Positions 8,535 through 23,187 of a stretch of 34,609 nt of DNA are shown one piece after another (position 1 is the stretch's first letter; each line of letters opens with the position of its first letter). The translations under genes and the position numbers were made by a program. The notes beneath the pieces were generated by a model. It was not told the origin of the DNA. It worked only from the letters and a program-made list of their open reading frames with translations, and did not search any database. Source of the stretch: Oscillospiraceae bacterium (GTDB lineage Bacteria; Bacillota; Clostridia; Oscillospirales; Acutalibacteraceae); the NCBI GenBank assembly GCA_015066045.1, contig SVPD01000023.1, positions 1 to 34,609 on the forward strand, given 5' to 3'.

Positions 8535-9045
8535 CTTTCTGCTTTTCAGAGAGATTCTACGGTGAGGCTTCTGAAATCTTTCATTTTTAACCCGAAGCCT
8601 TACTCATTGTCTGCGCACTACCTCTTGCGGCTCCACTCTGGCTCTTACTGTTATGAGGTACTGAAAGAGTGTTTATGCGAAACAGTGGTTTTGAACGGAG
8701 TGAAGTAAAACAAAAATTATATTTCACTATGGTGTTTTTCTATCTCCGCCGAGCCTGCGCAGGCGGCCACCGAGGGAAGTATTTCCCGAGGCAAAAGGGC
8801 GCTTTGTTTACTTTGGCGCTCGAATGTGCCAAAGTAAAAGCCATAGCGGCTTGAGCGTTGAAAACCTAAAGGTTTTCTCTGCGGATGAAAACTGCTACGA
8901 AAACTTTATTGTTTCGCACCCCGACAGTCGCTCACCGCTCTGTCTGCTTTTCAGAGAGGTTTTACGGTGAGCTTCGTAAACCTAACTGTAGCCTCTTTTA
9001 ACCCGAAGCCTAATCGGTTGTCTGCACCCTATGACTATCACCGAA
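8535..9045 (+). repeat. Dispersed noncoding repeat, copy B (+ orientation)
   Basis: Fills the gap between two minus-strand genes and has no credible ORF. Order of recognisable modules: TTCAGAGAGATTCTACGG, TTTAACCCGAAGCC, GGCTCTTACTGTTATGAGGT, TATCTCCGCCGAGCCTGCGC, the hairpin ACTTTGGCGCTCGAATGTGC-CAAAGT, AAGCCATAGCGGCTTGAGCG, AAACCTAAAGGTTTTCTCTG, then a second CCGACAGTCGCTCACCGCTC and TTTTAACCCGAAGCC. It lacks the central block with CCGTTATTTTCAGTTC seen in copies A, C and E, which points to internal deletion or recombination between the repeated sub-modules. Confidence 0.8.
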
Positions 9046-9091: not shown

Positions 9092-11899
9092 TTATTTACA
9101 TTTAATGCTCTTTACCTTACTGTATGCACCGTAAACCTTAACCTTGTTTACTGTCTTATAGGCACGTACCTTTACGTAATACTTCTTTTTGCTCTTAAGC
9201 TTTTTGATAATGGTTTTAACTGTCTTCTGCTTTTTGATAGTAACAGTCTTGGTGGTCTTTTTGGTGAACTTCTTAGAGGTGGAATACTGTACCTCATAGC
9301 CGGTTACACCTGAAACCTTCTTCCATTCTACTACGATTTCCTTCTTTTTCTTGGAGCGAAGGTCCTTGAGTGATACGGTTGCGGGCTTGGTTGAGCCGCT
9401 GACAGTGCTGCTGTCCTTGCTCTTATATTTGCCTGCTACGGCTACTACCTTAAACTTATAGGTAGTGCCTGTCTTAAGCTTTTTAACGGTGGCAGAGGTC
9501 TTCTTTGTCTTTACTGTCTTCCATTTGCCTGAGCCGGTCTTATAGTAAAGAATGTAGGACTCGGCACCGGTTACCTTCTTCCATGAGAATTTGATGGAGG
9601 AGGTGCTTACTGCAGAGGACTTAAGACCTGTGGGCTTACTGAGAGTAAGTCTGCTGACAGTTTTCTTTTCGGTATACTTACAGTTAGCGTTTGTACACTT
9701 TCTTTCCTGTGTACCCGTGGACGTGTAGGTAGCCTTCTTTGTTGTTTTCCAGCTGCCCATCTTATGACCTGTAGCGGCTACGGCTTCGGTTTTTGCAGCT
9801 CCCTTACATACTGAGCAGTAGTAGGTTCTGATACCCTTATCGGTGCAGTTAGGAGCCTTGGTTATTTTGTTGGAGCCTATCTTGTGACCGAGTTTATTGA
9901 TTTTAGTGGTGTAATAATGACCGCACACTACACAGGTATGACCTACTTTTCCGTCTGTGGTACATTTGGCGGCTGACTCTACCTTTGATTTATAGTGGTG
10001 GCCTGTGGCAGGAATCACATCATTACTGTCAGAGAAGTTTTTATTCTTGCAGCCGTCCTTTGTACAAACCTTAGTGGGAGCATAGCCGTCAGAAGTACAG
10101 GTGGGAGCCTTGCCTTCTTTGGTGATACTTTCCTTTACATTATCGATAGCACCGTAAATAATGCCGATAAGTGAGGCCGTGGCTTCACTGCGGGAGCTGA
10201 GAGTTTCGATTATAACCTTGGCCAGATTTCCTATCTTGGCACCGGAAAGAGCGTCATTAAAGCTGCTCCAGGAATTAAGAGACTTGGAGCCTGCCCAGTT
10301 TTTAATGAGGTTATTTACCGTATTGCTCAGGAAGGTTACTACCTTGGCATTACCTGCGAACTTGTATGCCTTGACTGCAGTAGCGTTAATGAAGCCCTGA
10401 AGGTCAATTCTGAAGGCACAGTCAAGAAGACCTTTGATATAGGCTTCCGAATTAAAGTTTGCAGTGCCGTCATTGGCGGTGTAGTCAAGAATAATGTCGA
10501 GCTTTTCGAAATATGAGGAGGCTCTGGTCATTTTCCAGCCGAAGAAGGCATCGAGGTTTTTATCCACAAGGAAGAAATTAAAGAAGCTGTTGAAAACCTC
10601 CCAGACGGTCTTTTTGCCGTTGGCGGTGATGGGTGTTTTACCGTCAAGGTCATAAAGAGGAATGGTGTCGCCGATTTTTTCGATGATGTAGTCACCTATA
10701 ACATGCTCATAGGTGGCACCTGGGCCATAGGTCTTACCGTTTTCCTTATAAGCATAATAGATAAAGAGCTTATTAACTAAATCGGTGAGATTGCCTGCTT
10801 TTTCAACTGCTTTGTATGCATTGGCATCTGCACCCTGAATGATAACCTTGACCACTTCGAGCATAAGCTGCTCATCGGTTTTACCTGCCGGATTGATGCC
10901 GAGTCCGTTTTTGGCTATGTACTGAACGAGACCTCTCATATTATCGCCGATGAGAGTGTAGCCGCCAGTTTTCCAGCCGGTATATCCGGGAACTATCTGG
11001 AGGAAAACCTGACGTAACACATTGTTAATCTGGTCAATGAGGGGTGCCGATGTAAAGCTGATGCCGCCCTTATAATTACCGAGCTTAATAACATCATCGA
11101 GCTTTTCATAGCCTAATTCTGCGAAGGAAACGGGATTCTCTGCGATAAGCTTTCCGAGGTGCTTATTGAATACCATAGTGAAGATATTCTTAAGCAGACC
11201 GTCAATGGTAGTATCCCCATTAATGCTGATGCCCTCGAGAATCTCACCCTCAGCCGAGAGGAGCGTCATAACATCCTCATAAAGGAACTCATCAAAGTTT
11301 GCTTCTGCCTTTGCCTTTTTGGCAGCATCATCAGGGAATATAGCATCAGCGATACCGCCCTTGAGCATGGGACTGATATCGATTTTTATGCTTTCACTCT
11401 CTAAAACATCAAGTTTGACTAACACGGTGCCGATAATACCGAGATCCAGACCGTCATCTGATAAGAGTGCCTCTACCAGTGATGTATTTGCATTAGCAAG
11501 CCCGAGCAATTCACTGAAGATTTTAAAGTCACCTGATTTGCTGCGTGACATTCCTTTATCAAAATCACTGAGGTCAAGAGCTTTAAGATCGCCAAGCAAA
11601 TACTTGCCCAGAGTAATAGCTAAACGGAAATCATCTAAGGTTGTGCAAATTGCATCGACTGAGGTGAGGTCAATAACGATGTTAAGCTCGTCAACCTCAA
11701 AATTAATATCTGCCTCATCTAAAAGATCGTCAACTAAATCTAATAAATAATGCACGTTTTCCTTGGTTGCGTTCTGAGCGTAGGTTTTGTAGCTGAAGGA
11801 CTCCGCTGCACTGACACCGAATGCCGACACCGACACTGCGGAGAACACCATCAGAAGACACATAATCAGACTCAGACCGCGCTGAAACACTGTTTTCAT
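9092..11899 (-). CDS. Large secreted protein with a helical N-terminal region, Cys-rich repeats and two Fn3 domains
   Basis: Exported protein of 935 residues. The ATG at 11899 follows AGGAGG at 11914-11909. A signal peptide (MKTVFQRGLSLIMCLLMVFS, cut near VSA-AES) is followed by about 580 residues of mostly helical sequence with no family I recognise. Then come four repeats of the TC-x-x-x-G ... C-x-x-C type (TCTSDG, KCTTDG, NCTDKG; the fourth, TYTSTG, has lost its first Cys), the same class as in the protein at 6645-8399. The C-terminus has two fibronectin type III domains starting near PTGLKSSAVSTSSIKFSW and LKDLRSKKKKEIVVEW, both very Lys-rich, so this end is strongly basic and may hold the protein on anionic wall polymers. 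There is no LPXTG. The likely role is surface adhesion or binding, by inference. Confidence 0.8.
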   Translation of the reverse strand: MKTVFQRGLSLIMCLLMVFSAVSVSAFGVSAAESFSYKTYAQNATKENVHYLLDLVDDLLDEADINFEVDELNIVIDLTSVDAICTTLDDFRLAITLGKYLLGDLKALDLSDFDKGMSRSKSGDFKIFSELLGLANANTSLVEALLSDDGLDLGIIGTVLVKLDVLESESIKIDISPMLKGGIADAIFPDDAAKKAKAEANFDEFLYEDVMTLLSAEGEILEGISINGDTTIDGLLKNIFTMVFNKHLGKLIAENPVSFAELGYEKLDDVIKLGNYKGGISFTSAPLIDQINNVLRQVFLQIVPGYTGWKTGGYTLIGDNMRGLVQYIAKNGLGINPAGKTDEQLMLEVVKVIIQGADANAYKAVEKAGNLTDLVNKLFIYYAYKENGKTYGPGATYEHVIGDYIIEKIGDTIPLYDLDGKTPITANGKKTVWEVFNSFFNFFLVDKNLDAFFGWKMTRASSYFEKLDIILDYTANDGTANFNSEAYIKGLLDCAFRIDLQGFINATAVKAYKFAGNAKVVTFLSNTVNNLIKNWAGSKSLNSWSSFNDALSGAKIGNLAKVIIETLSSRSEATASLIGIIYGAIDNVKESITKEGKAPTCTSDGYAPTKVCTKDGCKNKNFSDSNDVIPATGHHYKSKVESAAKCTTDGKVGHTCVVCGHYYTTKINKLGHKIGSNKITKAPNCTDKGIRTYYCSVCKGAAKTEAVAATGHKMGSWKTTKKATYTSTGTQERKCTNANCKYTEKKTVSRLTLSKPTGLKSSAVSTSSIKFSWKKVTGAESYILYYKTGSGKWKTVKTKKTSATVKKLKTGTTYKFKVVAVAGKYKSKDSSTVSGSTKPATVSLKDLRSKKKKEIVVEWKKVSGVTGYEVQYSTSKKFTKKTTKTVTIKKQKTVKTIIKKLKSKKKYYVKVRAYKTVNKVKVYGAYSKVKSIKCK

Positions 11900-12392: not shown

Positions 12393-13672
12393 TGATAAAT
12401 GGTAAGGCTTCGGATTAAAAGTAAAGCTTTACGCTACAGTTAGGTTTACAAACCTCCCCGTAAAACCTCTCTGAAAAGCAGACAGAGCGGTGAGCGACTG
12501 TCGGGGTGCGAAACAATAAAGTTTCCGTAGCAGTTTTCATCCGCAGAGAAAACCTTTAGGTTTTCAACGCTCAAGCCGCTATGGCTTTTACTTTGGCACC
12601 AAAGAGCGCCAAAGTAAACAAAGCGCCCTTTTGCCTCGGGAAACTCCTTTCCCTCGGTGGCCGCCTTCGTAAACTCGGCGGAGATAGAAAACCACCATAG
12701 TGAAATATAATTTTTGTTTTACTTCACCCCGTTCAAAACCACGACTTCGCAGGTTTATATTTTCAGTACATCGTAATAGTTGAGTCCTGCTTGCACCCCG
12801 TGGCAGGGGTGCAGACAGTCGGTAAGGCTTCGGGTTAAAAAGAAAAGTCAACGAACCTTTCCGTAAAACCTCTCTGAAAAGCAGACAGAGCGGTGAGCGA
12901 CTGTCGGAGCGAAGGTGCTTAAGGGGCAGAAGCATACATTAGACGAAATATCTGTACAGGGAGGGAATGCGGCAGCGATGTCGCTTCTCTTTCTTTTTAA
13001 AAAGCACTCTGTACGCTCTCTCTTTCTGTAAGGCAGTACATAGAACTGAAAATAACGGTAGTGCAGTGAGTGTATTTTATGTATACGGCAGACTGAGGTG
13101 GATTGATAAAAATTAAATAAAACCTTACTCCGTTACTTTTCTTCGTTCGGATTGTTTTCGACAAAAAAGCGGTTTTGGTGACTTTTGCCAAGCACAAAAG
13201 TCACTCTGCGAAGCAATGCTGCATATAATTTTTTCGAAGCATAAAAGAGGATAACCAATACATAAATTTCGTCACCAAAGCAGTCGCTGCGATAGACAAA
13301 ACAATTAAGTTTCCGTAGCAGTTTTCCTCCGCAGAGAAAACCTTTAGGTTTTCAACGCTCAAGCCGCTATGGCTTTTACTTTGGCACCAAAGAGCGCCAA
13401 AGTAAACAAAGCGCCCTTTTGCCTCGGGAAACTCCTTTCCCTCGGTGGCCGCCTTCGTAAACTCGGCGGAGATAGAAAACCACCATAGTGAAATATAATT
13501 TTTGTTTTACTTCACCCCGTTCAAAACCACGACTTCGCAGGTTTATATTTTCAGTACATCGTAATAGTTGAGTCCTGCTTGCACCCCGTGGCAGGGGTGC
13601 AGACAACCGATTAGGCTTCGGGTTAAAAGGGAAGCTTTCGAGGCTTCCCCGTAAAACCTCTCAGAAAAATCA
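12393..13672 (-). repeat. Dispersed noncoding repeat, copies C and D in tandem (- orientation)
   Basis: Two tandem units with a 788-bp period. The segment 12541-12817 reappears at 13329-13605 with no difference that I can find (277 bp). The modules are the reverse complement of those in the other copies: CCGTAAAACCTCTCTGAAAA, GCGGTGAGCGACTGTCGG, ACGCTCAAGCCGCTATGGC, CTTTGGCACCAAAGAGCGCC, CGGCGGAGATAGAAAACCAC, then the central block with GAACTGAAAATAACGGTAG near 13043 and the GACTTTTGCCAAGCACAAAA hairpin near 13181. Open frames across it, including two with the same 76-residue end, follow from the duplication and lack start signals. I see no terminator for the gene at 13684-14403 other than these hairpins. 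Confidence 0.85.
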
Positions 13673-13683
13673 GTGCAGAAGCC

Positions 13684-14403
13684 TTAATGCCTCGTATCAT
13701 CTCCGAAGCACTCGCAGTATCTTGCCTGAAAAGAAGGCTCGTGATTTCCCGCATAAAGGTGACTCAGATCGCCGTACTGTATGCAGGTGAAAATGGCAGT
13801 GCCTTTTTCTCTTTCTTGAGTGGCCAGACGGGTAACAGAGGTGGGCAGAGCCACGAAATTATGCCACATAATCATGGGAGAGATGCCGAAAATGTGGGAG
13901 AGAATAACTGACTCCACACCGAAATGGCAGAAAAGAACTATACGGGCGTGGCTTTCCTTTTCTACTGTAAAAAGCTTGCCCTTGTGGTGGTAGCCGTATT
14001 TTTTCAGCAGCTCATCCAGACCGTCGCAAACCTGCTTATATTGCTTATATACTCCGCCCTGCTTCATCAGCTTCACTCTGTGCCAGCGGTCGTAGGAGTA
14101 GTAGTCGGGCTCTGCCGTCCAGTAGGAGGGCAGCCTGTCCCAGCAGGCGGTTTTTCTGAAAAGCCCCTGCTTCACTCTGCCCTCGAACTCTGTCAACCAA
14201 GGCAGGGTTTCGGCCGTTCTGCCTGTTTTATCGAGAGTGTATGAGGCGGTTTTCTGTGCTCTGCCCAGCGGTGAGCAGTAAAAGTCCGTTACCTCCAGCT
14301 TAGCCAGTCTGTCGGCTAAAAGTCTTGCCTCCTCTATACCCTTATAGGTGAGACTGTCCCGCTCGTAGTCGGGATCACCGTGGCGCACGATAAGTATTTC
14401 CAT
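13684..14403 (-). CDS. Histidine phosphatase superfamily protein (phosphoglycerate mutase-like)
   Basis: Cytoplasmic phosphatase of 239 residues, branch-1 histidine phosphatase type. The phosphohistidine motif is at residues 7-9 (IVRHGDPDYE), the YCSPLGRAQKTA segment supplies the second Arg, and the second catalytic His is in VLFCHFGVES. The family removes phosphate from small metabolites or, less often, proteins; the substrate here cannot be predicted. The ATG at 14403 follows AAAGGAGAG with good spacing. It is a single-gene unit whose -35/-10 lie just upstream. It separates the tandem repeat array from the phage head operon, transcribed in the same direction as the phage genes but with its own promoter. 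Confidence 0.88.
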   Translation of the reverse strand: MEILIVRHGDPDYERDSLTYKGIEEARLLADRLAKLEVTDFYCSPLGRAQKTASYTLDKTGRTAETLPWLTEFEGRVKQGLFRKTACWDRLPSYWTAEPDYYSYDRWHRVKLMKQGGVYKQYKQVCDGLDELLKKYGYHHKGKLFTVEKESHARIVLFCHFGVESVILSHIFGISPMIMWHNFVALPTSVTRLATQEREKGTAIFTCIQYGDLSHLYAGNHEPSFQARYCECFGDDTRH

Positions 14404-14572: not shown

Positions 14573-14662
14573 AAAACAGATGTGTTTAAGTCAGAAGCAA
14601 AGGTGACACTTCATAAGGAATTTAAGTCTTATGAAATGCCACCCGACTTACACATCTGTTTT
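14573..14662 (-). terminator. Nested inverted repeat closing the phage head operon
   Basis: Outer 13-bp arms AAAACAGATGTGT (14573-14585) and ACACATCTGTTTT (14650-14662); inner arms TTCATAAG (14610-14617) and CTTATGAA (14628-14635), flanked by GGTG/CACC at 14602-14605 and 14640-14643. Read on the minus strand it is followed by TTTTAATTTTTAT, so it can terminate the phage operon. The 22-base centre (14605-14626) recurs exactly at 34492-34513. The rest of the gap 14456-14703 is AT-rich and holds no gene. Confidence 0.65.
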
Positions 14663-14703: not shown

Positions 14704-15114
14704 TTATATCTGTTTTTCTGTCTGAAAAAGAAGCTCACTGTTAATTCTGAAGGCATCCACATCACTGTCATATTCTGTTTTGCCCACAGTGAAGCTCACT
14801 ATGCTACTGTTGCTTTTCATAAGCATGAGCATTACCGATTCCGTCAGAGTATGTGTTACGGCAGGTGAAAGCGTCAGGGGAATGAAGCAGTTGACGGCTA
14901 TTCTCACACTGTTTACCTCGGTTTTTTTACCGCTTTCGTCGGCGGAATAATAAAGCTTGTTTTCCAGTGCCGAAAAGGAAAAGTAGGTCTTTTTTATGGG
15001 CACGGGCAGATTTTTACTTTCGTAGGCTCTGATGGCGCTGCAGTTACTGTTAAGCACGTCAGAGTCGGTGATGGTCTTTATGAAAGCATCTATAAGTGCG
15101 GCTGAAGACTGCAT
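14704..15114 (-). CDS. Probable phage tail-completion (neck) protein, last gene of the head operon
   Basis: 136 residues. I assign it by position (third small gene after the major capsid protein), by size, and by its mixed alpha/beta pattern, with an N-terminal helix IDAFIKTITDSDVL and a long helix HTLTESVMLMLMKS typical of gp17/tail-terminator-like neck proteins. No motif proves this. The ATG at 15114 has AAGGAGGG just upstream, and the start is 1 base past the previous stop. In a complete siphophage the next genes would be the tail tube and tape measure; here the operon ends in an inverted repeat at 14573-14662. Candidate partners are the connector proteins encoded just upstream. Confidence 0.55.
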   Translation of the reverse strand: MQSSAALIDAFIKTITDSDVLNSNCSAIRAYESKNLPVPIKKTYFSFSALENKLYYSADESGKKTEVNSVRIAVNCFIPLTLSPAVTHTLTESVMLMLMKSNSSIVSFTVGKTEYDSDVDAFRINSELLFQTEKQI

Positions 15115-15115
15115 A

Positions 15116-15454
15116 TTATCCCTCCTTGTGGACTATCGCCCAATAGTAAAGCTTTTTGCGTCCCAGATAAACGGGCTCGCAGTGGTCGGTAGAAAAGCTG
15201 CTTTCATCGAAATAAAGGGTGAAGCCCTCTCCCTCGAGATATTTAATATCTACCTCGGGCGGCGCCAGAAGCAGATATTTATTAAGTCCGTCATAGCCCA
15301 GCTCAGTGGGTACACCGCTGAGATATATTTTATTTTTATATCTCAGCGGCTGGAGAAAGGCACGGAAGGTTATCTTGTCCTTACCGTCGGTGGAGATAAG
15401 CTGAACACCGTATTTTTCGAAAAGCAGGCTTTTAATGATTATGTCAGCTGCCAC
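15116..15454 (-). CDS. Probable phage head-closure (stopper) protein
   Basis: 112 residues. Assigned by order and size: in siphophages the gene two places after the capsid gene often codes for the gp16-type stopper, a small beta-barrel. The sequence is beta-rich (KDKITFRAFLQPLRYKNKIY, GFTLYFDE, KKLYYWAIVH), which fits. The likely start is a GTG at 15454 with GGAGG 11 bases upstream, inside the end of the previous gene (11-bp overlap). Such overlaps suggest an intact translationally coupled phage operon. No direct motif supports a specific function. Confidence 0.55.
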   Translation of the reverse strand: MAADIIIKSLLFEKYGVQLISTDGKDKITFRAFLQPLRYKNKIYLSGVPTELGYDGLNKYLLLAPPEVDIKYLEGEGFTLYFDESSFSTDHCEPVYLGRKKLYYWAIVHKEG

Positions 15455-15806
15455 GGCAGAAAAAGCCTCCGTCTCTGAGAATGGATGAGGCTGCCGCTAT
15501 AGCCTCATTTTTTGCTTTTTCCTCGAAGCGCATTTCCCTTTCGAGATTTCTTCTCACGGTCATATCACCGGCCGTATAGGCTTCATATTTATCCGTTTCC
15601 GTCATACGGGTGAGAAAGAAAAAATAGTGTGCCATGGCTGCCGCAGTGGGTGGGATAAGGGGGCTTTCTCTGTCGGCTTGGCTTTTAAGATTACTCTGCA
15701 CCCAAAAAAGTCCTCTTTCGCAGCAGGGTGTCAGCTGCTCAGCCGTGTACGGCTCCATATCGGCATAGGCCTTCAGACAGGTTAATACATCGCTGACCTG
15801 AGTCAT
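15444..15806 (-). CDS. Probable phage head-tail connector (adaptor) protein
   Basis: 120 residues, mostly helical, directly after the major capsid gene. The position, size and helical character (DVLTCLKAYADM, TAAAMAHYFFFLTRM, ERFEEKAK-like C-terminal helix) match gp15/gp6-type adaptors that sit under the portal ring. The ATG at 15806 follows GAGGAGG. It is cotranscribed with the flanking genes: 12 bp after the capsid stop and overlapping the next gene by 11 bp. Assignment rests on gene order more than on sequence motifs. Confidence 0.6.
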   Translation of the reverse strand: MTQVSDVLTCLKAYADMEPYTAEQLTPCCERGLFWVQSNLKSQADRESPLIPPTAAAMAHYFFFLTRMTETDKYEAYTAGDMTVRRNLEREMRFEEKAKNEAIAAASSILRDGGFFCRGS

Positions 15807-15818
15807 CTCTCAGCCTCC

Positions 15819-16829
15819 TCAGGCAAACATAAGACATTTTGCGGCGTCGTTATAAATTTTGGCAAAGCCTGAGGTTACGGTCACGGAGGCTCTTTCGAGC
15901 TGCCTGTCTATGAGCTTGTCAAATTCTGTTACGATACCGCCTGCCTGCACTCTTTCGAGAGCGGCTGCTTTGTCTATGGCAAGGATTTTTTCGTCACCGA
16001 GGTGGGGGAAGTGGATAATCTCGGCACCGAAGGGTGTGATGAGCTTTCCGGTGGTGTGGAAGCCGAGTCCTGCTGCCGAATCCTTGAATTCATCCATTTT
16101 GAGCACCTTTGTCAGAGTACCCGTACCCATGATAATGGTGGAAAGGTTAAAGCCCTTGAAGGCTGCCCAGAGGGAAAGAAGGTCATTATAGCTTAAGGTA
16201 TCGGGATCGTCGATAAAGATAAATTCGCTTTCACCCTCTGTGCCGTCACCCTGGAGCAGAGTGTCTATGGCTCTGTAGGCCTGTGTGGTGGCGATGGCGG
16301 AGCCTATCTGTCTGAGAGCGATGGTGAAAAGGTCGAGACGCTGATGCTTGACCGCTTCATAGGAGGCGGTAATCATTCTGCCGATTTTTTCGAGCTTTAC
16401 CAGATTGCTCTTTACGGAAACTCTCGTTTCGGGGATGTGAGCACCCTCGAAAACAGGGTTCATATATGTTTCGTTTTTCGTGATGTCCACGGCTAATGAG
16501 CGGTAGTCAAGAGAGTCGATTTCCGTGGTGGTGGCTACCATACGTGAGGCGATATCGTTTTCCTCGAAGCCCTGATGCACGGCTCGGGAGATATATTCGG
16601 GGAAAAGTGCCGCCGAGTCCGTGGTTCTGAAAAATTTTTCTATAGTGTCGCTGCTTCTGCCGCTTACCTTGATGCCGAAGCGCTTGAGCTGGCGCTGATA
16701 TGCGTCAAGACCTTCGAGAGCGGTGCCTCTGTAGTTTTCGCTGGGATCCAGGCTCTCGAGTGCCTGTGTAAAGGATTTGCCTGTAGTGTAAAGACCTTTT
16801 TCGAGTCTGATGTTATCATATGCTGCCAT
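15819..16829 (-). CDS. Phage major capsid protein (HK97 fold)
   Basis: Structural protein of the phage head shell, 336 residues. The sequence follows the HK97-type plan: an N-terminal arm, the FPEYISRAV segment preceding the E-loop, a long spine helix region (KIGRMITASYEAVKHQRLDL), and a C-terminal P-domain strand pattern (TPFGAEIIHFPHLGDEKILA). There is no separate scaffold gene; the upstream protease carries a coiled-coil end that may do that job. The ATG at 16829 follows GGGAGGAA. The reading frame is intact with no internal stops, unusual for a decayed prophage fragment. Gene order, decoration protein before and connectors after, supports the call. Confidence 0.85.
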   Translation of the reverse strand: MAAYDNIRLEKGLYTTGKSFTQALESLDPSENYRGTALEGLDAYQRQLKRFGIKVSGRSSDTIEKFFRTTDSAALFPEYISRAVHQGFEENDIASRMVATTTEIDSLDYRSLAVDITKNETYMNPVFEGAHIPETRVSVKSNLVKLEKIGRMITASYEAVKHQRLDLFTIALRQIGSAIATTQAYRAIDTLLQGDGTEGESEFIFIDDPDTLSYNDLLSLWAAFKGFNLSTIIMGTGTLTKVLKMDEFKDSAAGLGFHTTGKLITPFGAEIIHFPHLGDEKILAIDKAAALERVQAGGIVTEFDKLIDRQLERASVTVTSGFAKIYNDAAKCLMFA

Positions 16830-16847
16830 ATAGCTGTTCCTCCCTGA

Positions 16848-17189
16848 TTAAAGTATGATGCCGCAGGTCATGGCGGCGGTGTCTACATCGGTTACGAGAA
16901 TGCTTCTGCCGTCGGCATCCTTTCTGATACCGCCGTTTCCGTCAGCTGAAAGCGTGTTAAAGCCGCAGACGGGGGCTTCACCGGAATAGGTGATTTTTAC
17001 GTAGCCGCTGAGAAGTACGCTTGCATTGTAGTTGTTTACGTCGGTGCATACGCCGATAAAGCAGTCACCGTCACCGGCTGCCTTTACTGTGAAGCTTTCT
17101 GCCATAGCTACGGTTTTTCCCTTTTCCACGTACTGCATTGCTGCTAAAGTGACTTCCTTTCTGTCGAAGCCGTCGAGATAATTATTCAT
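16848..17189 (-). CDS. Probable phage capsid decoration (cement) protein
   Basis: 113 residues, between the protease and the major capsid gene, the usual place for a head decoration protein. The pattern is beta-rich with GDGDCFIGVCTDVN, VLLSGYVKITYSG, GFNTLSADGNGG and a terminal CGIIL, which is like small trimeric cement proteins of the DUF2190 kind; I rate that similarity as suggestive. The ATG at 17189 has AAGGAGG overlapping the stop codon of the preceding gene, so translation is probably coupled. The product would sit on the outside of the capsid. Confidence 0.65.
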   Translation of the reverse strand: MNNYLDGFDRKEVTLAAMQYVEKGKTVAMAESFTVKAAGDGDCFIGVCTDVNNYNASVLLSGYVKITYSGEAPVCGFNTLSADGNGGIRKDADGRSILVTDVDTAAMTCGIIL

Positions 17190-17201
17190 TTTATTTCCTC
17201 C

Positions 17202-18140
17202 TTAGATTCTGAAATCCGAATTATCACTGTCAGATGTTTCTTTTACGGGTGCGAGCTGGGGCGATAAGGGGATGCGTCCGTTTGCCTGCGCTCTGAGAGA
17301 GTGACACAGGTCCTTTACCTCTCTTATGTCCATGCTTTTGCAGCCCTTTATAAATGCCGAAATATTTACGTCGGGCATAATGATGAGAGCGTATTTTCTG
17401 ATTTCCGCCGTCAGCTGCTCACGGTAGGCTTTTCCCTCTGAGGCAAGGCTTTCCAGAGAGCTTATGTGTGCCTTAAGGCTCTCCATTTCCTCTGCCGTGA
17501 TGAGAGTGTCCTCACTGAGGCTTTTAAATTTTTCTATGGTCATGGTTATTTTTTCTTCCTTTCCTGTGAAAGACTTAGTGACGCCTGCGTTTCTTTGGGC
17601 CGGTACTGCCACGAAGGACCATTCGTAGGCATCGGTGGGACTTTTGAGAATACCGTGGCAAAGCTTTCCGGCATAGGATTTACCCTTTGTATGCTCGCAG
17701 AGATGCTTTTTCATATCCTTGCCGCAAAGGGAGCATATACACTCACTCATGGCGCAGCCTATGCTGACCTCTTTTTTTATGCCGCCCTCTATCTCCTTTA
17801 TGAGAGAAGCGTTTTCCTCTGTGCGCAGCATATAGGCTCTGGCCTTGAGAGCCGTGTAGTTTTCACCGCAGGAGGTTTTTTCGGTCTGCGATTTTTCGAT
17901 ATAGGTTCTGAAAATTCTGGCTCTCTGGTCTCTGGAGCTCATGCTGTGGTCTGAAATGCCCGTCTTTCCCACGAAAAGCTCACCGAGAGTGACCAAAGCC
18001 TCTGTGCTGAAGCGCTCGAAATCTCTGTCTACCTCATTGTCGCAGAGGGTTACGGTAAAAATGTAAATATCCTCGGAGCTAAGGGGAGAACGTGTATGCC
18101 TGTTAATGAGCTCCAGCTCCTTTTCAGCTTTCATATTCAT
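17202..18140 (-). CDS. HK97-type prohead protease with a Cys/His insertion and a scaffold-like coiled-coil end
   Basis: 312 residues. Head maturation protease: the N-terminal core shows DNEVDRDFERFS, the His in GISDHSMS and the Ser in KKEVSIGC, followed by YEWSFVAVPAQRNAG, the strand-and-PA pattern of HK97-family proteases. Between the Ser and that strand lies a Cys/His cluster (CICSLCGKDMKKHLCEH) that could bind zinc. The last ~110 residues are charged and helical (EKFKSLSEDTLITAEEMESL), like a fused scaffolding domain. The start is the ATG at 18140, 8 bases after GGAGG (18153-18149); an upstream GTG at 18149 overlaps that site and is not chosen. It overlaps the portal gene by 17 bp. Confidence 0.8.
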   Translation of the reverse strand: MNMKAEKELELINRHTRSPLSSEDIYIFTVTLCDNEVDRDFERFSTEALVTLGELFVGKTGISDHSMSSRDQRARIFRTYIEKSQTEKTSCGENYTALKARAYMLRTEENASLIKEIEGGIKKEVSIGCAMSECICSLCGKDMKKHLCEHTKGKSYAGKLCHGILKSPTDAYEWSFVAVPAQRNAGVTKSFTGKEEKITMTIEKFKSLSEDTLITAEEMESLKAHISSLESLASEGKAYREQLTAEIRKYALIIMPDVNISAFIKGCKSMDIREVKDLCHSLRAQANGRIPLSPQLAPVKETSDSDNSDFRI

Positions 18141-19290
18141 CCTTTTCACCTCCTATTTCACGGTAAATTTTTTCGCTTTGTGCCCTGTAAAGGTCACTTT
18201 GTGCCATAAGAGTGATATCCTGCAGCGTAAGGTCGTCCCATTCCACGGTGAAGCCGCTGTCATAGCCGTGCAGGCTGAGGAAGGTGCGGCATATACGCCT
18301 TATCACGGGAGTAATTTCTCTGCGGTAGGCGTCTATTTCGCTGGTGAGGAGGTCTGCCTGCTGGCTGCTCATTCTTTCGCTCGTGGACCAGTTAAGTCCG
18401 AGAAGAAAGGGCGGAATACCAAGCTTTGCCACTATCTGCTCTAAAAGCTGCCTGACGGGAATTTCACTGTCCAGAATCTGATTGTCGGCACCTATAGCCT
18501 TTATGCTCACATCGCCTACGGCTACGAAGTCCTTTACGGGACCGCCGCTTTTCATGGTGTTGCTCCATTCTCGTGCCACCTGCATAGCTCTTTCCTGAGC
18601 GAAGGCCTTGTCCACCGAGTCATTCTGCGGCTTATAGGTCACGGAAAAGCGGAGGTTTCCCACTCTTTCCCAGTTGAGGCCTATGGTGTTGAAAATCTTT
18701 AAAAGCACGTCGCTTACGAAGGGAAGACCTTTCAGCACCGAGGTACCGTAGATTTTTCCCGGCTCAGGATTGTGGACAGACAGTAGGATAAGCTCGGGGT
18801 ATCTGACCGGAGCGAAGCGGCCCGCAGAGGTCTCAGCGTTTATTACTATGTCCAGAGGCGACCTGCCATGGCTGAGATAAACACTGTCCAGAGAGCTGTT
18901 AAAAAGATGGGTGACCGTAGACGAGTCGGTTATCATCTCACCTACGGCAGTACCCACGGTCAGAAGCTGGTCGAAAAAGGTGGTGATAAAGGCGTGTATT
19001 CCCTGTCTTGTCCCGCCCACATTCACTGTGTCAAGAAAAAAGGAAAGCTCCTTTTCTGCCTGAGCATCCTCGCATACTACTCTGAAATCGCCCAAAAGGC
19101 GTACAAGCTTGCTTATGGCCGCATCTATTACGGGCACGGCCTCACGCAGTCCCATGTAAAGGCGGGTATCTGCAGGTGCCTGAGGCATATAAGACGAAAG
19201 CGAGGAAAAGGGATGAGAGCTGCTGCCTGTCTGGGGCACTGCCATAACCTCCCGTGCTGCGGAGTGTTTTTTGCGTTTTCCTAATGCCAA
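18124..19290 (-). CDS. Phage portal protein
   Basis: 388 residues. Forms the dodecameric DNA gate at one capsid vertex. Recognised from the segment order: DAAISKLVRLLGDFRV near the N-terminus (wing/stem entry), the YPELILLSVHNPEPGKIYGTS region with downstream LKGLPFVSDVLLKIFNTIGL, and PPFLLGLNWSTSERMSSQQA with ITPVIRRICRTFL (stem and crown). The length is near the lower end for the family. The start codon is TTG at 19290, placed by AAAGGAG about 7 bases upstream; there is no ATG that keeps the conserved N-terminus. Its position between terminase and protease is canonical. Confidence 0.85.
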   Translation of the reverse strand: MALGKRKKHSAAREVMAVPQTGSSSHPFSSLSSYMPQAPADTRLYMGLREAVPVIDAAISKLVRLLGDFRVVCEDAQAEKELSFFLDTVNVGGTRQGIHAFITTFFDQLLTVGTAVGEMITDSSTVTHLFNSSLDSVYLSHGRSPLDIVINAETSAGRFAPVRYPELILLSVHNPEPGKIYGTSVLKGLPFVSDVLLKIFNTIGLNWERVGNLRFSVTYKPQNDSVDKAFAQERAMQVAREWSNTMKSGGPVKDFVAVGDVSIKAIGADNQILDSEIPVRQLLEQIVAKLGIPPFLLGLNWSTSERMSSQQADLLTSEIDAYRREITPVIRRICRTFLSLHGYDSGFTVEWDDLTLQDITLMAQSDLYRAQSEKIYREIGGEKDEYES

Positions 19291-19345
19291 AATATTCTCC
19301 TTTCCTTTATCCCTGCCGAGTGGGAGTCAGCAGGGATAAATTATT

Positions 19346-20620
19346 TCATTCTCTTGCCGCAGCGAGAGCGAAAAAGCCCTCACCTTCACCGTCGGCAAGT
19401 ACGGTAGAGACAAAATATCGGATGTCGTCCATAGCGTGGTCGTTTTCTTTTTTCGGTGTGTCTGCGGTCGTGCTTTCTGCCCATCTGTAGAGGGAAAATT
19501 CCTTTATTGAGGCCGTGCACACCGGTGAGATAACTATCCTTCCTTCACGGAAGGCACTGTGGACCTTTCTTATGCCCGAAAGCACATCGTTTTTTGCGGG
19601 GATAACCCTGTATTTGCCCTTGCGTCTGATGCATTCGGCGAAGGAGGCGGCAGAGGGATCGATGACTATGCCTTCGATTTTTCTCTCTCCGGCCAGAAGA
19701 CAGAGCTTTTCGTAGTATTCCTCGTCGGTCAGCTGCCTGCCCTCGGCACGTGAGGAGTAATAGTATTCGTCGAAGCGGTACCATTTTCCCCCGTGCAGTC
19801 CCCATAGCCCCATGGAGGTAGGGTTTACCGTGCCGTAGTCACAGGAAATGTAATGCTTTTCAAATCTGCTTACGGGAGGCAGTCGGGTGTATTTCCCCTG
19901 AGCCGCATCGCCGTAAATCAGTCCGTCCGCCGCCACCCATCTGCCTAAAACGAAGCGCTCGTAAAAGGCTCCGCTGTAAAGCCTTTCATAACGCCTTATG
20001 ACCTTGGGTGAAAGAGAGGGGTTGTCCTGCATAAGGAAGTGGAGATAAAGACAGTTTTTTTCGTCGGCCTTTTTTATCCATTCCTCGTAAAACCAATGCT
20101 TCGGATTTTCGGGGTTGCAGTTAAACCAGAATTTTGAGCCGCTGAGTGAGCATCTGGCCAGAGCCTGCTCCACGAAGGAGCGTGGCATAAGAGCCACCTC
20201 ATCCAGAAGAACGCCGCCTAAGGTCATGCCCTGGATGAGAGAGGCGGAGCTTTCGTCTCTGCCTCCGAAAAGATAAAAACTGTTTGTACGGTCCTTAAAG
20301 GTGATTTCTATGAGATTCTGACTTACCTTCTCTCTGCACACAAAACCGGTATCCGTCAGCAGGGGCAGAAGAGGACGTATCACGTTCCGCCTCAGGGAGG
20401 CTATGGTCTTGCCGCAAAGTGCAAAGGAGGCACCGTCAAAGCTATAAAAGGACCAGATTATAAAGGAGAGAGACATACATGTGGTTTTTCCGCTTCTTAC
20501 GGCTCCGTCGCAGATAAGTCCGTCCAGGCTGCAGTAAGGAGAGGACTTATGCCACCAGGAGAGTGCCGTAAGCTGCTTTTTTGAAAATGAGATCATGCCG
20601 GTATTATTCATTTTTTTCAT
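19346..20620 (-). CDS. Phage terminase large subunit
   Basis: 424 residues. Two-domain packaging motor: the N-terminal ATPase has Walker A GAVRSGKT (residues 39-46) and Walker B GGVLLDE (Asp140, Glu141), with the coupling motif near WFNCNPEN. The C-terminal RNase H-like nuclease has its metal-binding acids in SCDYGTVNP (Asp261), IVIDPSAAS (Asp321) and DHAMDDIRY (Asp398/399). All catalytic residues are present and the length is normal, so the enzyme looks functional. The type resembles PBSX/Terminase_6. The ATG at 20620 overlaps the end of the small-subunit gene by 17 bp and has no clear ribosome binding site, which suggests coupled translation. A 55-bp gap follows before the portal gene. Confidence 0.92.
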   Translation of the reverse strand: MKKMNNTGMISFSKKQLTALSWWHKSSPYCSLDGLICDGAVRSGKTTCMSLSFIIWSFYSFDGASFALCGKTIASLRRNVIRPLLPLLTDTGFVCREKVSQNLIEITFKDRTNSFYLFGGRDESSASLIQGMTLGGVLLDEVALMPRSFVEQALARCSLSGSKFWFNCNPENPKHWFYEEWIKKADEKNCLYLHFLMQDNPSLSPKVIRRYERLYSGAFYERFVLGRWVAADGLIYGDAAQGKYTRLPPVSRFEKHYISCDYGTVNPTSMGLWGLHGGKWYRFDEYYYSSRAEGRQLTDEEYYEKLCLLAGERKIEGIVIDPSAASFAECIRRKGKYRVIPAKNDVLSGIRKVHSAFREGRIVISPVCTASIKEFSLYRWAESTTADTPKKENDHAMDDIRYFVSTVLADGEGEGFFALAAARE

Positions 20621-21080
20621 CTCTGAGTGCGGCGGCGCCTTTTTCTATGGCACTGAAAAGTGTGGCTGCAGAGTCTGCTTCTTCCTCGCAGGCTAACTGC
20701 TGCAGATGCTCCAGAGCTTTGAGACGGTCGAAAAATCTGATTTCTATGTCTCCGCCCTTTTTTCTTTTTATATCGGAAATGTTATAAAGGTCCATCTGAC
20801 GCAGCTGCTCGTCGGTTATCTCCTCTTTAAAAAGTAGACTAACCGCATCGGCATAGCAGCCGAAGGCCAGACGGTAATAGCCCGATATAATGTCCTTCTG
20901 AGAGGCTCTCTTTTCTCTGTCGTTTTTTTCGATTTCTGCCTGTACCTCTTTTTTTCTCAGCAGTCGCAGAGCGCTTTTTTCGGGAAAGATATATCCCGCC
21001 TTCGCCGCTGCTTCTCCCGCATTTCTCGAAATACAGTAATAGGTACAGAAAAGCTTTTCCTTGGATGAAACTGTGCTGAT
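20604..21080 (-). CDS. Phage terminase small subunit, start codon uncertain
   Basis: DNA-recognition subunit of the packaging motor, about 158 residues. The frame reads KEKLFCTYYCISRNAGEAAAKAGY then KSALRLLRKKEVQAEI: the helix-turn-helix start typical of Terminase_2 proteins, followed by a coiled coil and an oligomerisation region. The frame is open from a TGA at 21117-21119 but holds no ATG, GTG or TTG until the Met at 20795, well inside the conserved part. AAAGGGG at 21095-21089 stands exactly 8 bases before an in-frame ATC at 21080-21078, so I place a tentative non-canonical start there; a mutated start codon or remote coupling are alternatives. It is followed by terL with a 17-bp overlap. 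Confidence 0.7.
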   Translation of the reverse strand: MSTVSSKEKLFCTYYCISRNAGEAAAKAGYIFPEKSALRLLRKKEVQAEIEKNDREKRASQKDIISGYYRLAFGCYADAVSLLFKEEITDEQLRQMDLYNISDIKRKKGGDIEIRFFDRLKALEHLQQLACEEEADSAATLFSAIEKGAAALRDEKNE

Positions 21081-21140
21081 ACTGATTACCCCTTTCGTAA
21101 GTAAGATTTTTGTCTCTCACCTATACACGGAAAACTGCCG

Positions 21141-21164
21141 TTTTTTGCGTGGTTTACGCAAAAA
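21141..21164. terminator. Bidirectional hairpin upstream of the phage head operon
   Basis: TTTTTTGCGT-GGTT-TACGCAAAAA: an 8-9 bp stem with T and A flanks. It lies between the terminase small subunit and the divergent peptide gene. It could terminate transcripts from either side or attenuate entry into the phage operon. I found no convincing minus-strand promoter in 21081-21240. Confidence 0.6.
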
Positions 21165-21312: not shown

Positions 21313-21408
21313 ATGGAAGCATTAGTTCAGTGGGTTATGGACAACTGGGGCAAGATCATTTCTTTCCTTGAGAAGCTTTTCGATGTAATCGCAGAAGCAG
21401 CAGAATAA
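21313..21408 (+). CDS. 31-residue amphipathic helical peptide
   Basis: Translation: M-E-A-L-V-Q-W-V-M-D, N-W-G-K-I-I-S-F-L-E, K-L-F-D-V-I-A-E-A-A, E. All expression signals are present: exact consensus promoter at 21239-21267, AAAGGAG at 21298-21304 with 8-base spacing, ATG at 21313, TAA at 21406, and a terminator at 21465-21492. The peptide should be one amphipathic helix with two Trp on the hydrophobic side and net charge about -4; there is no signal peptide. Residues 17-26 (SFLEKLFDVI) resemble FVEKLFNAI inside the secreted protein at 2697-3713 and the tails of the esterase and adhesin here. It stands divergent to the phage head operon and just upstream of a repeat array. Candidate surface-active or membrane-binding peptide; function unknown. 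Confidence 0.8.
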   Translation: MEALVQWVMDNWGKIISFLEKLFDVIAEAAE

Positions 21409-21492: not shown

Positions 21493-21682
21493 TTTTACTT
21501 TTCAGTCGATAGAAAAAAAGAATCAGTCCGCCGGATCGTTTATCTGACTCAGCGGACTGTTGCTTTTTATATATCATTATAAATACAGAAAATAAAATAC
21601 TGATTTGGTTGAAAACTTTGGTGGGAAAGATTAAAAACTGGGCAAAGAAAAACAAAAATTAGTTTCAACTACGGCAGTTCAT

Positions 21683-23187
21683 TATCTCCGCCAAGCCTGC
21701 GCAGGCGGCCACCGAGGGAAGTATTTCCCGAGGCAAAAGGGCGCTTTGTTTACTTTGGCGCTCGAATGTGCCAAAGTAAAAGCCATAGCGGCTTGAGCGT
21801 TAAGAGCTTAAAAGTTTTAAAGAACTTATCCGTTTTTATGCTTCGGATAAAATTTATATAGTTGTTGCTTCGCAGACCTACTTTTGTTACGACAAAAGTA
21901 GGCAAAATCATTTTTTTGGTGGAAACAATCCGAACGAAGAAAAGTAACGGAGAAAGGTTTTTACTTTGAATTTATCATTCTACCTCAATCTGCCGTTTAC
22001 ATAAAAACAACCTCACTACTCTACCGTTATTTTCAGTTCTATGTACTGCCTTACAGAAAGAGAGAGCGTACAGAGTGCTTTTTAGAAAGAAAGAGTAAGG
22101 AAATCGCTGCGCATTCCCTCCCCGCACAGATATTTCGTCTAATGTATGCTTTTTACCCCTTAAGCACCTACGCTCCGACAGTCGCTTCCCGCTCTGTGTT
22201 CCTTTCAGAAAGGTTTTACGGTAAGGTTCGTGACTTTCCTTTTTAACCCGAAGCCTTACTCATTGTCTGCACACCTGCCAGGTGTGCCCCACTCTGGCTC
22301 TTACTGTTATGAGGTACTGAAAGAGTGTTTATGCGAAACAGTGGTTTTGAACGGGGCAAAGCAAAACAAAAATTATTAATATGGTATTGACTCCTTATCT
22401 CCGCCAAGCCTGCGAAGGCGGCCACCGAGGGAAGTATTTCCCGAGGCGAAAGGGCGCTTTGTTTACTTTGGCGCTCGAATGAGCCAAAGTAAAAGCCATA
22501 GCGGCTTGAGCGTTGAAAACCTAAAGGTTTTCTCTGCGGAGGAAAGCGAATACTGTGACTTTATTGTTTTATCTTTAACGGTGACTGCTTTGGTGACGAA
22601 ATCTATGTATCGGTTATCCGCTTTTATGCTTAGGATAATTTATATGTACCATTGCTTCGCAGAGTGACTTTTGTGCTTGGCAAAAGTCACCAAAACCGCT
22701 TTTTTGTCGGAAACAATCCGAACGAAGAAAAGTAACGGAGTAAGGTTTTGTTCATTTTTAACTGTTTTGCCTTAATCAGCCGTTAAGCAAATAAAAAACT
22801 TCTACTCTACCGTTATTTTCAGTTCTATACTTAGCCTTACAGAAAGAGTGAGCGTACAGAGTGCTTTTTAGAAAGAAAGAGTAAGTAAATCGCTGCCGCA
22901 TTCCCTCCCCGAACAGATATTTCGTCTAATGTATGCTTTTACCCCTTAAGCACCTACACCCCGACAGTCGCTTCTTGCTCGATGTGCTTTTCAGAAAGGT
23001 TTTACGGAAAGGTTCTTAAAATGTGCCTTCGACGATTGGCGCCCGAATGTGCCAAAGTAAAAGCCATAGCGGCTTGAGCGTTAAGAACTTATATGTTTCA
23101 ATAAACTTATTTGTTTTTATGCTTCGGAAAAAATATATGAAGTATTGCTTCGCAGACCTGCTTTTGTTTCGACAAAAGCAACGTAAC
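21683..23187 (+). repeat. Dispersed noncoding repeat array, copies E, F and partial G (+ orientation, ~713-bp period)
   Basis: The longest gene-free part of the window. TATCTCCGCCAAGCCTGCG occurs at 21683 and 22396 (713 bp apart). AAGTAAAAGCCATAGCGGCT follows in each unit and recurs in a third, shortened unit near 23055. Order in a full unit: TATCTCCGCC module, ACTTTGGC...GCCAAAGT hairpin, AAGCCATAGCGGCTTGAGCG, a TTGCTTCGCAGA element, a CTTTTG...CAAAAG hairpin, GGAAACAATCCGAACGAAGA, CTACCGTTATTTTCAGTTCT, CAGATATTTCGTCTAATGTA, CCGACAGTCGCTTC, TTTTTAACCCGAAGCC and GGCTCTTACTGTTATGAGGT. The units differ by scattered substitutions, so they are older than the C/D pair. No coding capacity is visible. 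Bases 21493-21682 are AT-rich with no gene. Confidence 0.85.

Follow-up and report, generated by a model that had tools for sequence, protein, structure and literature searches.

A probable host-owned, gene-transfer-agent-like operon reduced to head and neck in an Oscillospiraceae bacterium

Contig SVPD01000023.1 of an Oscillospiraceae bacterium, a relative of Clostridia from gut and rumen (GenBank assembly GCA_015066045.1; GTDB order Oscillospirales, family Acutalibacteraceae) carries an intact 6.4-kb operon of nine phage head genes on its minus strand, at positions 14704-21080. The window analysed here is the whole contig (C31; 34,609 nucleotides), part of a genome (G000) of 2.24 Mb in 68 contigs that is 97.9% complete. 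The operon is probably a host-owned, vertically inherited, gene-transfer-agent-like module (a viriform) that has been reduced to head and neck. This reading draws on gene content, intactness, single copy, congruence with the host tree, purifying selection, conserved residues of the large terminase subunit (TerL), the fold of a terminator protein and the lack of baseplate or fibre matches. Its genes follow the canonical order of small terminase subunit (terS), terL, portal, protease or scaffold-like gene, decoration gene, capsid gene, adaptor-like gene, stopper-like gene and terminator, separated by gaps of 1-55 nt or overlapping by 11-26 nt. The original prediction, made from the sequence, had described such a canonical order with short gaps or overlaps and undamaged frames, as we find, and had offered a domesticated DNA-packaging particle as its more adventurous interpretation; that interpretation, in which particles and packaging are predicted, is now the best supported.

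The module is nearly fixed in the genus. A capsid gene was found in 33 of 34 genus genomes, with no internal stop in any match, and occurs once in each, except that in G026 one match is split over two contigs. The sole genome without a capsid match, G022, is also without an rpoB match. Across the family the gene is present in 177 of 300 genomes and 80 of 135 genera, with a single match in 174 of the 177 among the matches listed. A profile search of the order recovered it in 43 of 295 genomes, always once: 20 belong to the window's own family (the window's genome included) and 23 to five other families.

We compared a head tree (TerL, portal, protease and capsid) with a host tree (rpoB) for 25 of the 34 genus genomes. 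The remainder were left out, G028 because a wrong open reading frame (ORF) had been taken as rpoB, and G003, G004, G009, G017, G019, G020, G022 and G026 for want of a long rpoB match. The two trees share 17 of 22 splits. All 16 head splits with support of at least 0.9 recur in the rpoB tree, as do 14 of 15 in the reverse direction, and no conflict exists among splits with support of at least 0.95. Across 2000 label permutations at most 3 splits were held in common, and the Mantel correlation was 0.74 versus at most 0.29 in permutations. Within the window's clade the order of species is not settled. These results suggest that, in 25 of 34 genomes and judged by one marker, the head module has been inherited vertically with its host.

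Selection on the module was estimated from six species pairs among the four species of the window's clade. Approximate dN/dS ratios were 0.06-0.14 for terS, 0.11-0.14 for terL, 0.07-0.10 for portal, 0.09-0.12 for protease, 0.10-0.18 for capsid and 0.06-0.25 for the neck genes (one pair undefined), giving 0.06-0.25 over these eight genes; the decoration gene gave 0.14-0.53. The ratios point to purifying selection on the structural genes, weak in the case of the decoration gene, and lie far below the values near 1 that the original prediction had named as evidence against a domesticated module.

The operon and its immediate surroundings comprise the following features.

13684-14403, minus strand: histidine phosphatase, a cellular flank gene (PF00300, 4e-18), also present in G014
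14573-14662, no strand: inverted repeat, a probable terminator hairpin at the operon end
14704-15114, minus strand: tail terminator protein by fold (con3), without a fused fibre-like domain (AlphaFold pLDDT 91; Foldseek)
15116-15454, minus strand: stopper-like neck protein (con2; AlphaFold pLDDT 80, weak Foldseek match to the SPP1 connector complex)
15444-15806, minus strand: head-tail adaptor-like protein (con1), named by position only; present in 32 of 32 genus loci
15819-16829, minus strand: major capsid protein (phrog_3922, 3.1e-87; PF25209, 5.3e-12)
16848-17189, minus strand: head decoration-like protein (phrog_4588, 8.4e-24)
17202-18149, minus strand: probable head maturation protease or scaffold (phrog_16951, 7e-99, function unknown), its role inferred from its place
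18124-19290, minus strand: portal with a TTG start (phrog_30703, 1.2e-127; PF04860 below its cut-off)
19346-20620, minus strand: TerL, PBSX family (TIGR01547, 1e-53, above cut-off; phrog_2, 2.2e-42)
20604-21080, minus strand: terS, small terminase subunit (phrog_2606, 4.1e-12; phrog_51, 7.6e-12); the open frame runs stop to stop from 20604 to 21116
21142-21164, no strand: perfect palindrome TTTTTGC-N9-GCAAAAA, a candidate operator upstream of terS
21313-21408, plus strand: gene for a 31-aa peptide, divergent from the operon, without a PHROG match; G009 has a relative in the corresponding position

Family models bear out the roles first proposed for terS, terL, portal, decoration and capsid genes. 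The protease or scaffold gene has its sole match in a PHROG of unknown function and takes its role from its position between portal and capsid, and the three genes first labelled connectors found no match in the family-model search. Structure prediction places two of them. For con3, 26 Foldseek matches in the PDB reach E <= 0.001, and 25 of these are neck, collar or terminator proteins such as lambda gpU; by its predicted fold con3 is a tail terminator. The top match of con2 is the SPP1 connector complex (E 0.019, prob 1.00, TM 0.54), with none at E <= 0.001, which weakly suggests a stopper. A terminator fold together with a weak likeness to a stopper indicates that the operon seems to encode a head closed at the neck, not a random slice of a phage. 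In TerL, residues K53, T/S54, D148, E149, D269, D329 and D406, which we take to mark the ATPase and nuclease sites, are conserved. An alignment of 144 sequences from 155 loci, with some genomes counted twice, retains the site residues in all covering sequences (141 to 144), apart from 2 in which S replaces T54 and 13 in which E replaces D407. With these residues kept and the portal frame whole, terminase and portal look intact and are predicted to be active.

The ends of the operon needed revision. The frame of terS (170 codons) has no ATG, GTG or TTG before residue 108, so its likely start is the ATC at 21080-21078, which follows an AAAGGGG ribosome-binding site. The gene thus probably begins at a non-canonical codon at 21080, and the operon end first placed at 21120 proves to be the end of an ORF in another frame. 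Predicted terS starts in 29 genus loci are ATC or ATA in 10, TTG in 10, ATG in 8 and ambiguous in 1, each behind a site resembling a ribosome-binding site. Seven of the 10 ATC or ATA loci are without an in-frame ATG, GTG or TTG upstream, and 3 have a GTG 22-23 codons before a conserved LFC motif. Such starts could possibly act as a throttle on the protein that starts packaging. The portal has a TTG start at Shine-Dalgarno spacing in 29 of 32 genus loci (19288-19290 in the window) and the capsid an ATG start in 32 of 32 (16827-16829), a contrast that fits a tuned stoichiometry; the same control on other genes is rough, with up to 10 of 32 loci lacking a clear start. At the other end, folding bears out the inverted repeat at 14573-14662 (-43.9 kcal/mol, z -8.3). 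It had been seen as lying where a tail tube gene should begin; we read it as a terminator-like hairpin because in three close relatives the operon stops at that gene too and has no such repeat. The palindrome at 21142-21164, with 0.03 expected in the window, has a matching position in each of the four species of the window's clade; of the other 25 genus loci, only 5 show near-matches, and these are scattered.

Cellular genes flank the operon, as originally described. None of 13 window ORFs outside it that we scanned with Pfam, a set from which smaller ORFs were left out, is phage-like; they include the histidine phosphatase and a beta-galactosidase, which both adjoin the operon, and PEP carboxykinase. 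Tail, replication and integration genes and satellite regulators were not recognised in the window, nor were lysis genes, at which no search was specifically aimed; this agrees with the prediction that tail, lysis, integrase and regulator genes are missing beside the operon. The original prediction had proposed to look for the same flanks around tailless copies in relatives. No tail gene of this lineage was recognised in 32 genus loci, but the histidine phosphatase follows the operon only in G014 among 40 other loci, and a relative of the peptide gene occurs only in G009. The operon adjoins mfd in 7 of 20 genus loci. Such differing flanks indicate that its site is not fixed. An hflX-like GTPase gene lies near the operon in six loci of distant family genera (L090, L092, L093 and L095-L097; cluster c18, one member checked by Pfam), a hint of an old shared site. 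We considered a composite transposon formed by 579-nt inverted repeats (12853-13431 and 22437-23015) and rejected it: the 300-nt core at 13299-13598 has 19 genome matches on 6 contigs, which identifies it as a genome-wide intergenic repeat. Members of this repeat family, which has short inverted-repeat cores, lie at 12511-13598, 21636-23098 and 8647-8914 of the window.

Profile searches of G000 returned no baseplate J related to this lineage and no fibre-like domain. No tape measure of family PF10145 (PhageMin_Tail) is present, and the only PF03237 TerL is the operon's own. We also searched 32 genus head loci, 22 of them on stretches that extend 5 kb or more beyond the terminator and 10 on shorter ones. 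Tube-like, LysM, hub, spike, sheath-initiator, baseplate J and gp48 genes of this lineage turned up in none of the 32; a full prophage in close relatives, which the original prediction named as contrary evidence, was thus not found there. Weak baseplate J matches occur in 3 of 34 genus genomes, on other contigs.

Most of the genus carries a different short form. A fibre-like domain, so named from its gene's place and weak PHROG matches, is found at the head locus in 21 of 34 genomes, and in 20 of 20 genus loci compared it shares an open frame with the terminator. The domain is lacking in 12 of 33 capsid-bearing genomes, the window's included, and these are scattered in several places on the rpoB tree, which suggests that it was probably lost more than once. 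Elsewhere in the family, baseplate J was matched in 48 of 120 genomes, 40 times strongly (E below 1e-40) and 8 times weakly. Among the 40, the gene lies 3-7 kb behind the capsid on the same contig in 28 and on another contig in 5; the other 7 were left out, the capsid's place being not listed or no capsid matched. Baseplate-bearing family loci such as L089 have the head followed by LysM, hub, sheath-initiator-like (below its Pfam cut-off), baseplate J, Mu gp48-like and a last fibre-like gene. No sheath-sized gene was seen in L089, and its one unassigned gene, of 257 aa, has no Pfam match. In G066, G093 and G123 an operon split in two parts was considered and set aside: head and baseplate pieces both end at contig ends and look like one cluster broken in assembly.

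Longer forms occur outside the family. Of 17 loci from five other families of the order compared by profiles, nine (L352-L360) match tube-like, LysM, hub, spike, sheath-initiator, baseplate and gp48 profiles, 'tube-like' being our interpretation of members whose only PHROG matches have an unknown or a general function. Three of the nine (L353, L354 and L359) were tested for a tail sheath, and all have one. Five loci (L362-L365 and L368) have head genes and only a hub-like gene, one also with a LysM-profile match; L366 has head genes and a long terminator, and L361 and L367 end early. Across the order such heads come with sheath and baseplate, with a baseplate and no recognised sheath, or with a terminator that bears a fused fibre-like domain; the window's clade has head and neck alone. 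Most simply, a contractile ancestor would first have lost sheath and tube, next the baseplate, with fusion of fibre to neck, and finally the fibre, a direction inferred and not drawn from a rooted-tree reconstruction. Another family also has short forms, which suggests repeated reduction.

Virus databases contain relatives of the cluster. Of the best 80 of 395 IMG/VR relatives, 72 loci also hold portal and protease genes of this lineage. A free phage as source was considered and rejected: eight phage records match the capsid, five being unannotated faecal records at 50-54% identity and three lying at 27-28%. The longest of the five and the one examined, MT835508.1 (L370; MT835508), filed as 'Bacteriophage sp.', is bacterial chromosome (Rnf, RpoA, SecY) around a head operon. 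One IMG/VR record (3300032038_000365; L217) is a phage contig that has a TerL, a portal and a Phage_capsid gene of its own. Besides these it holds, at 10001-10981 and 16327-17124, a further capsid gene, of this lineage and with 75% identity to a host copy, and a protease-like gene that shares about 46-54% identity with those of hosts; capture of the host particle's capsid, hijacking or chimeric assembly are candidate readings. In another virus record (L204, 7207-10121) a head operon with a fused fibre-like domain is followed directly by a tRNA-Pro gene, and that gene by an integrase and an S24 repressor. The tRNA-Pro between cluster and integrase suggests that a separate element probably integrated there, and the sole portal match is the head cluster's own.

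Several known systems resemble the window's module in part. The head genes of RcGTA of Rhodobacter capsulatus, like those of the window, are host-owned, vertically inherited and under purifying selection. RcGTA is set apart by its short tail, its fibres and its lysis and regulatory genes at unlinked sites, and by its distant bacterial group. PBSX of Bacillus subtilis has a contractile tail and lysis and regulatory genes, and kills rather than transfers DNA. The window's TerL falls in the PBSX family model TIGR01547, and PBSX too is a defective phage kept by its host, but neither a contractile tail nor lysis genes were recognised in the window, and tail-gene profiles of this lineage matched nothing in 32 genus loci. 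Capsid-forming satellites of the phage-inducible chromosomal island (PICI) type likewise make their own heads and no tails; they carry an integrase and regulators and move between hosts, unlike a module that is near-fixed in its genus and tracks the host tree. As in gene transfer agents, the host genome holds phage-like structural genes, with none for replication or integration recognised. A gene transfer agent also has a tail or other delivery device, and searches of G000 for a related baseplate J and fibre-like domain returned neither. The element is best filed as gene-transfer-agent-like, without a recognised device of that kind; it would package and transfer host DNA.

The closest counterpart by description is FpGTA of Faecalibacterium prausnitzii (Borodovich et al. 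2026, Nat Commun; PMC12946183). FpGTA is reported to form heads of about 40 nm that contain about 9 kb of host DNA, with no identifiable tail. FpGTA I is a 10.5-kb head operon with some tail components, found in all twelve genus genomes examined; a second operon of 5.5 kb, in 5 of 12 strains, encodes baseplate, fibre, receptor-binding and lysis (holin, endolysin) functions (PMC12946183). The paper also reports such packaging in other Ruminococcaceae, Oscillospiraceae and Christensenellaceae, the operon not being found in Gemmiger or Subdoligranulum (PMC12946183). Both systems come from gut Clostridia and join terS (missed there by annotation programmes), terL, portal, scaffold and capsid genes in an operon (PMC12946183). 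They differ in that FpGTA, as there described, spans 10.5 kb with some tail parts and a second operon in some strains, whereas the window's operon is 6.4 kb with no baseplate or fibre found. By description, the window's module looks most like FpGTA I minus its tail parts.

We weighed four other explanations. A decaying prophage, or the recent deletion that the original prediction gave as its plain reading, might by chance have left a head module, and the window has no recognised tail, lysis, replication or integration gene. Presence in 33 of 34 genus genomes, a head tree congruent with the host's and dN/dS well below 1 make this hardly credible, and we reject the recent deletion; neither the relaxed selection nor the patchy occurrence of a prophage remnant was seen. 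A PICI-like satellite that makes capsids and borrows helper-phage tails would also show head genes without tail genes, and L204 places such a cluster beside an integrase and S24 repressor. Yet the tRNA-Pro in L204 separates the two, its only portal match being the cluster's own, and in the window no integrase or regulator was recognised. Near-universal presence, the host-congruent tree and the lack in G000 of another TerL or a tape measure, as judged by PF03237 and PF10145, the families searched, likewise make a satellite very improbable. A domesticated head might instead serve a use other than transfer, as a toxin-like particle in the manner of PBSX, a storage compartment or an anti-phage decoy, its shells DNA-filled or empty. 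Heads that remain under selection while baseplate and, in this clade, fibre go unmatched would suit it; so would the PBSX-family TerL and the extra capsid in L217, which hints at an interplay of phages and heads. Killing of the PBSX type requires a tail, however, a mere shell has no need of conserved TerL residues, portal and neck, and baseplate and fibre-like genes follow the same heads in related genera. We regard a non-transfer use as unlikely, though not far-fetched. Some overlap with our preferred reading is shared by a two-part particle, in which an unlinked, divergent operon for tail, receptor binding and lysis, like FpGTA II, lies elsewhere in the genome; FpGTA occupies two operons about 125 kb apart in one strain (PMC12946183). 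Profile searches of a 97.9% complete genome found no baseplate J or fibre-like domain, and the broken clusters of G066, G093 and G123 lend no support, so that a second operon seems doubtful but worth bearing in mind.

Other observations weigh against a host-owned gene-transfer-agent-like module. The case is made from sequence, and the absence of baseplate and fibre matches in G000 leaves delivery without visible means. No capsid match was found in 123 of 300 family genomes, and operon neighbours vary within the genus. The tree comparison used a single host marker with label permutation as sole control and left out the nearest species, G009, which has no long rpoB. Many pairs come close to saturation at synonymous sites, which makes the dN/dS ratios approximate. 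Constraint is weakest on the decoration gene, which was not found in 15 of 32 genus loci; 11 of these could be placed on the tree, 10 outside the window's part and one (G024) inside.

If the operon is a gene-transfer-agent-like module, TerS and TerL would fill a small procapsid, made up of capsid, portal and protease or scaffold, with what is probably random host DNA, and adaptor, stopper and terminator would close the neck. Particles would form, and lysis of the cell would release the filled heads. Across most of the genus, the fibre-like domain on the terminator may sit at the neck and bind cells in the tail's stead. Since that domain is gone from the window's clade, recipients might bind heads through the product of an unlinked gene that our searches did not recover, or take up released DNA, for example by competence. 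More broadly, an order-wide gene-transfer-agent-like lineage of Clostridia may have lost its tail stepwise from a short contractile ancestor, leaving in the window's clade a tailless head, under selection, that packages DNA and either delivers it without injection or sheds it in protected form for uptake; we hold this wider proposal tentatively and give it a little less than even credence.

Gene transfer agents are documented mainly in Alphaproteobacteria, and the first gut example, from Faecalibacterium, was published in January 2026 (PMC12946183); beyond it, searches of one library of open papers listed no report of them from this order. The operons described here are offered as candidates for the host-DNA packaging seen in gut taxa without identified genes (PMC12946183). 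A head with the capacity estimated for FpGTA (8.5 kb) would accommodate the 6.4-kb operon itself. The module is near-fixed in its genus, common in its family and also occurs in five or more further families of the order; its tail genes vary stepwise between lineages, while the head stays under selection. If our reading holds, this locus would allow a direct test of whether a tailless, DNA-filled head moves genes.

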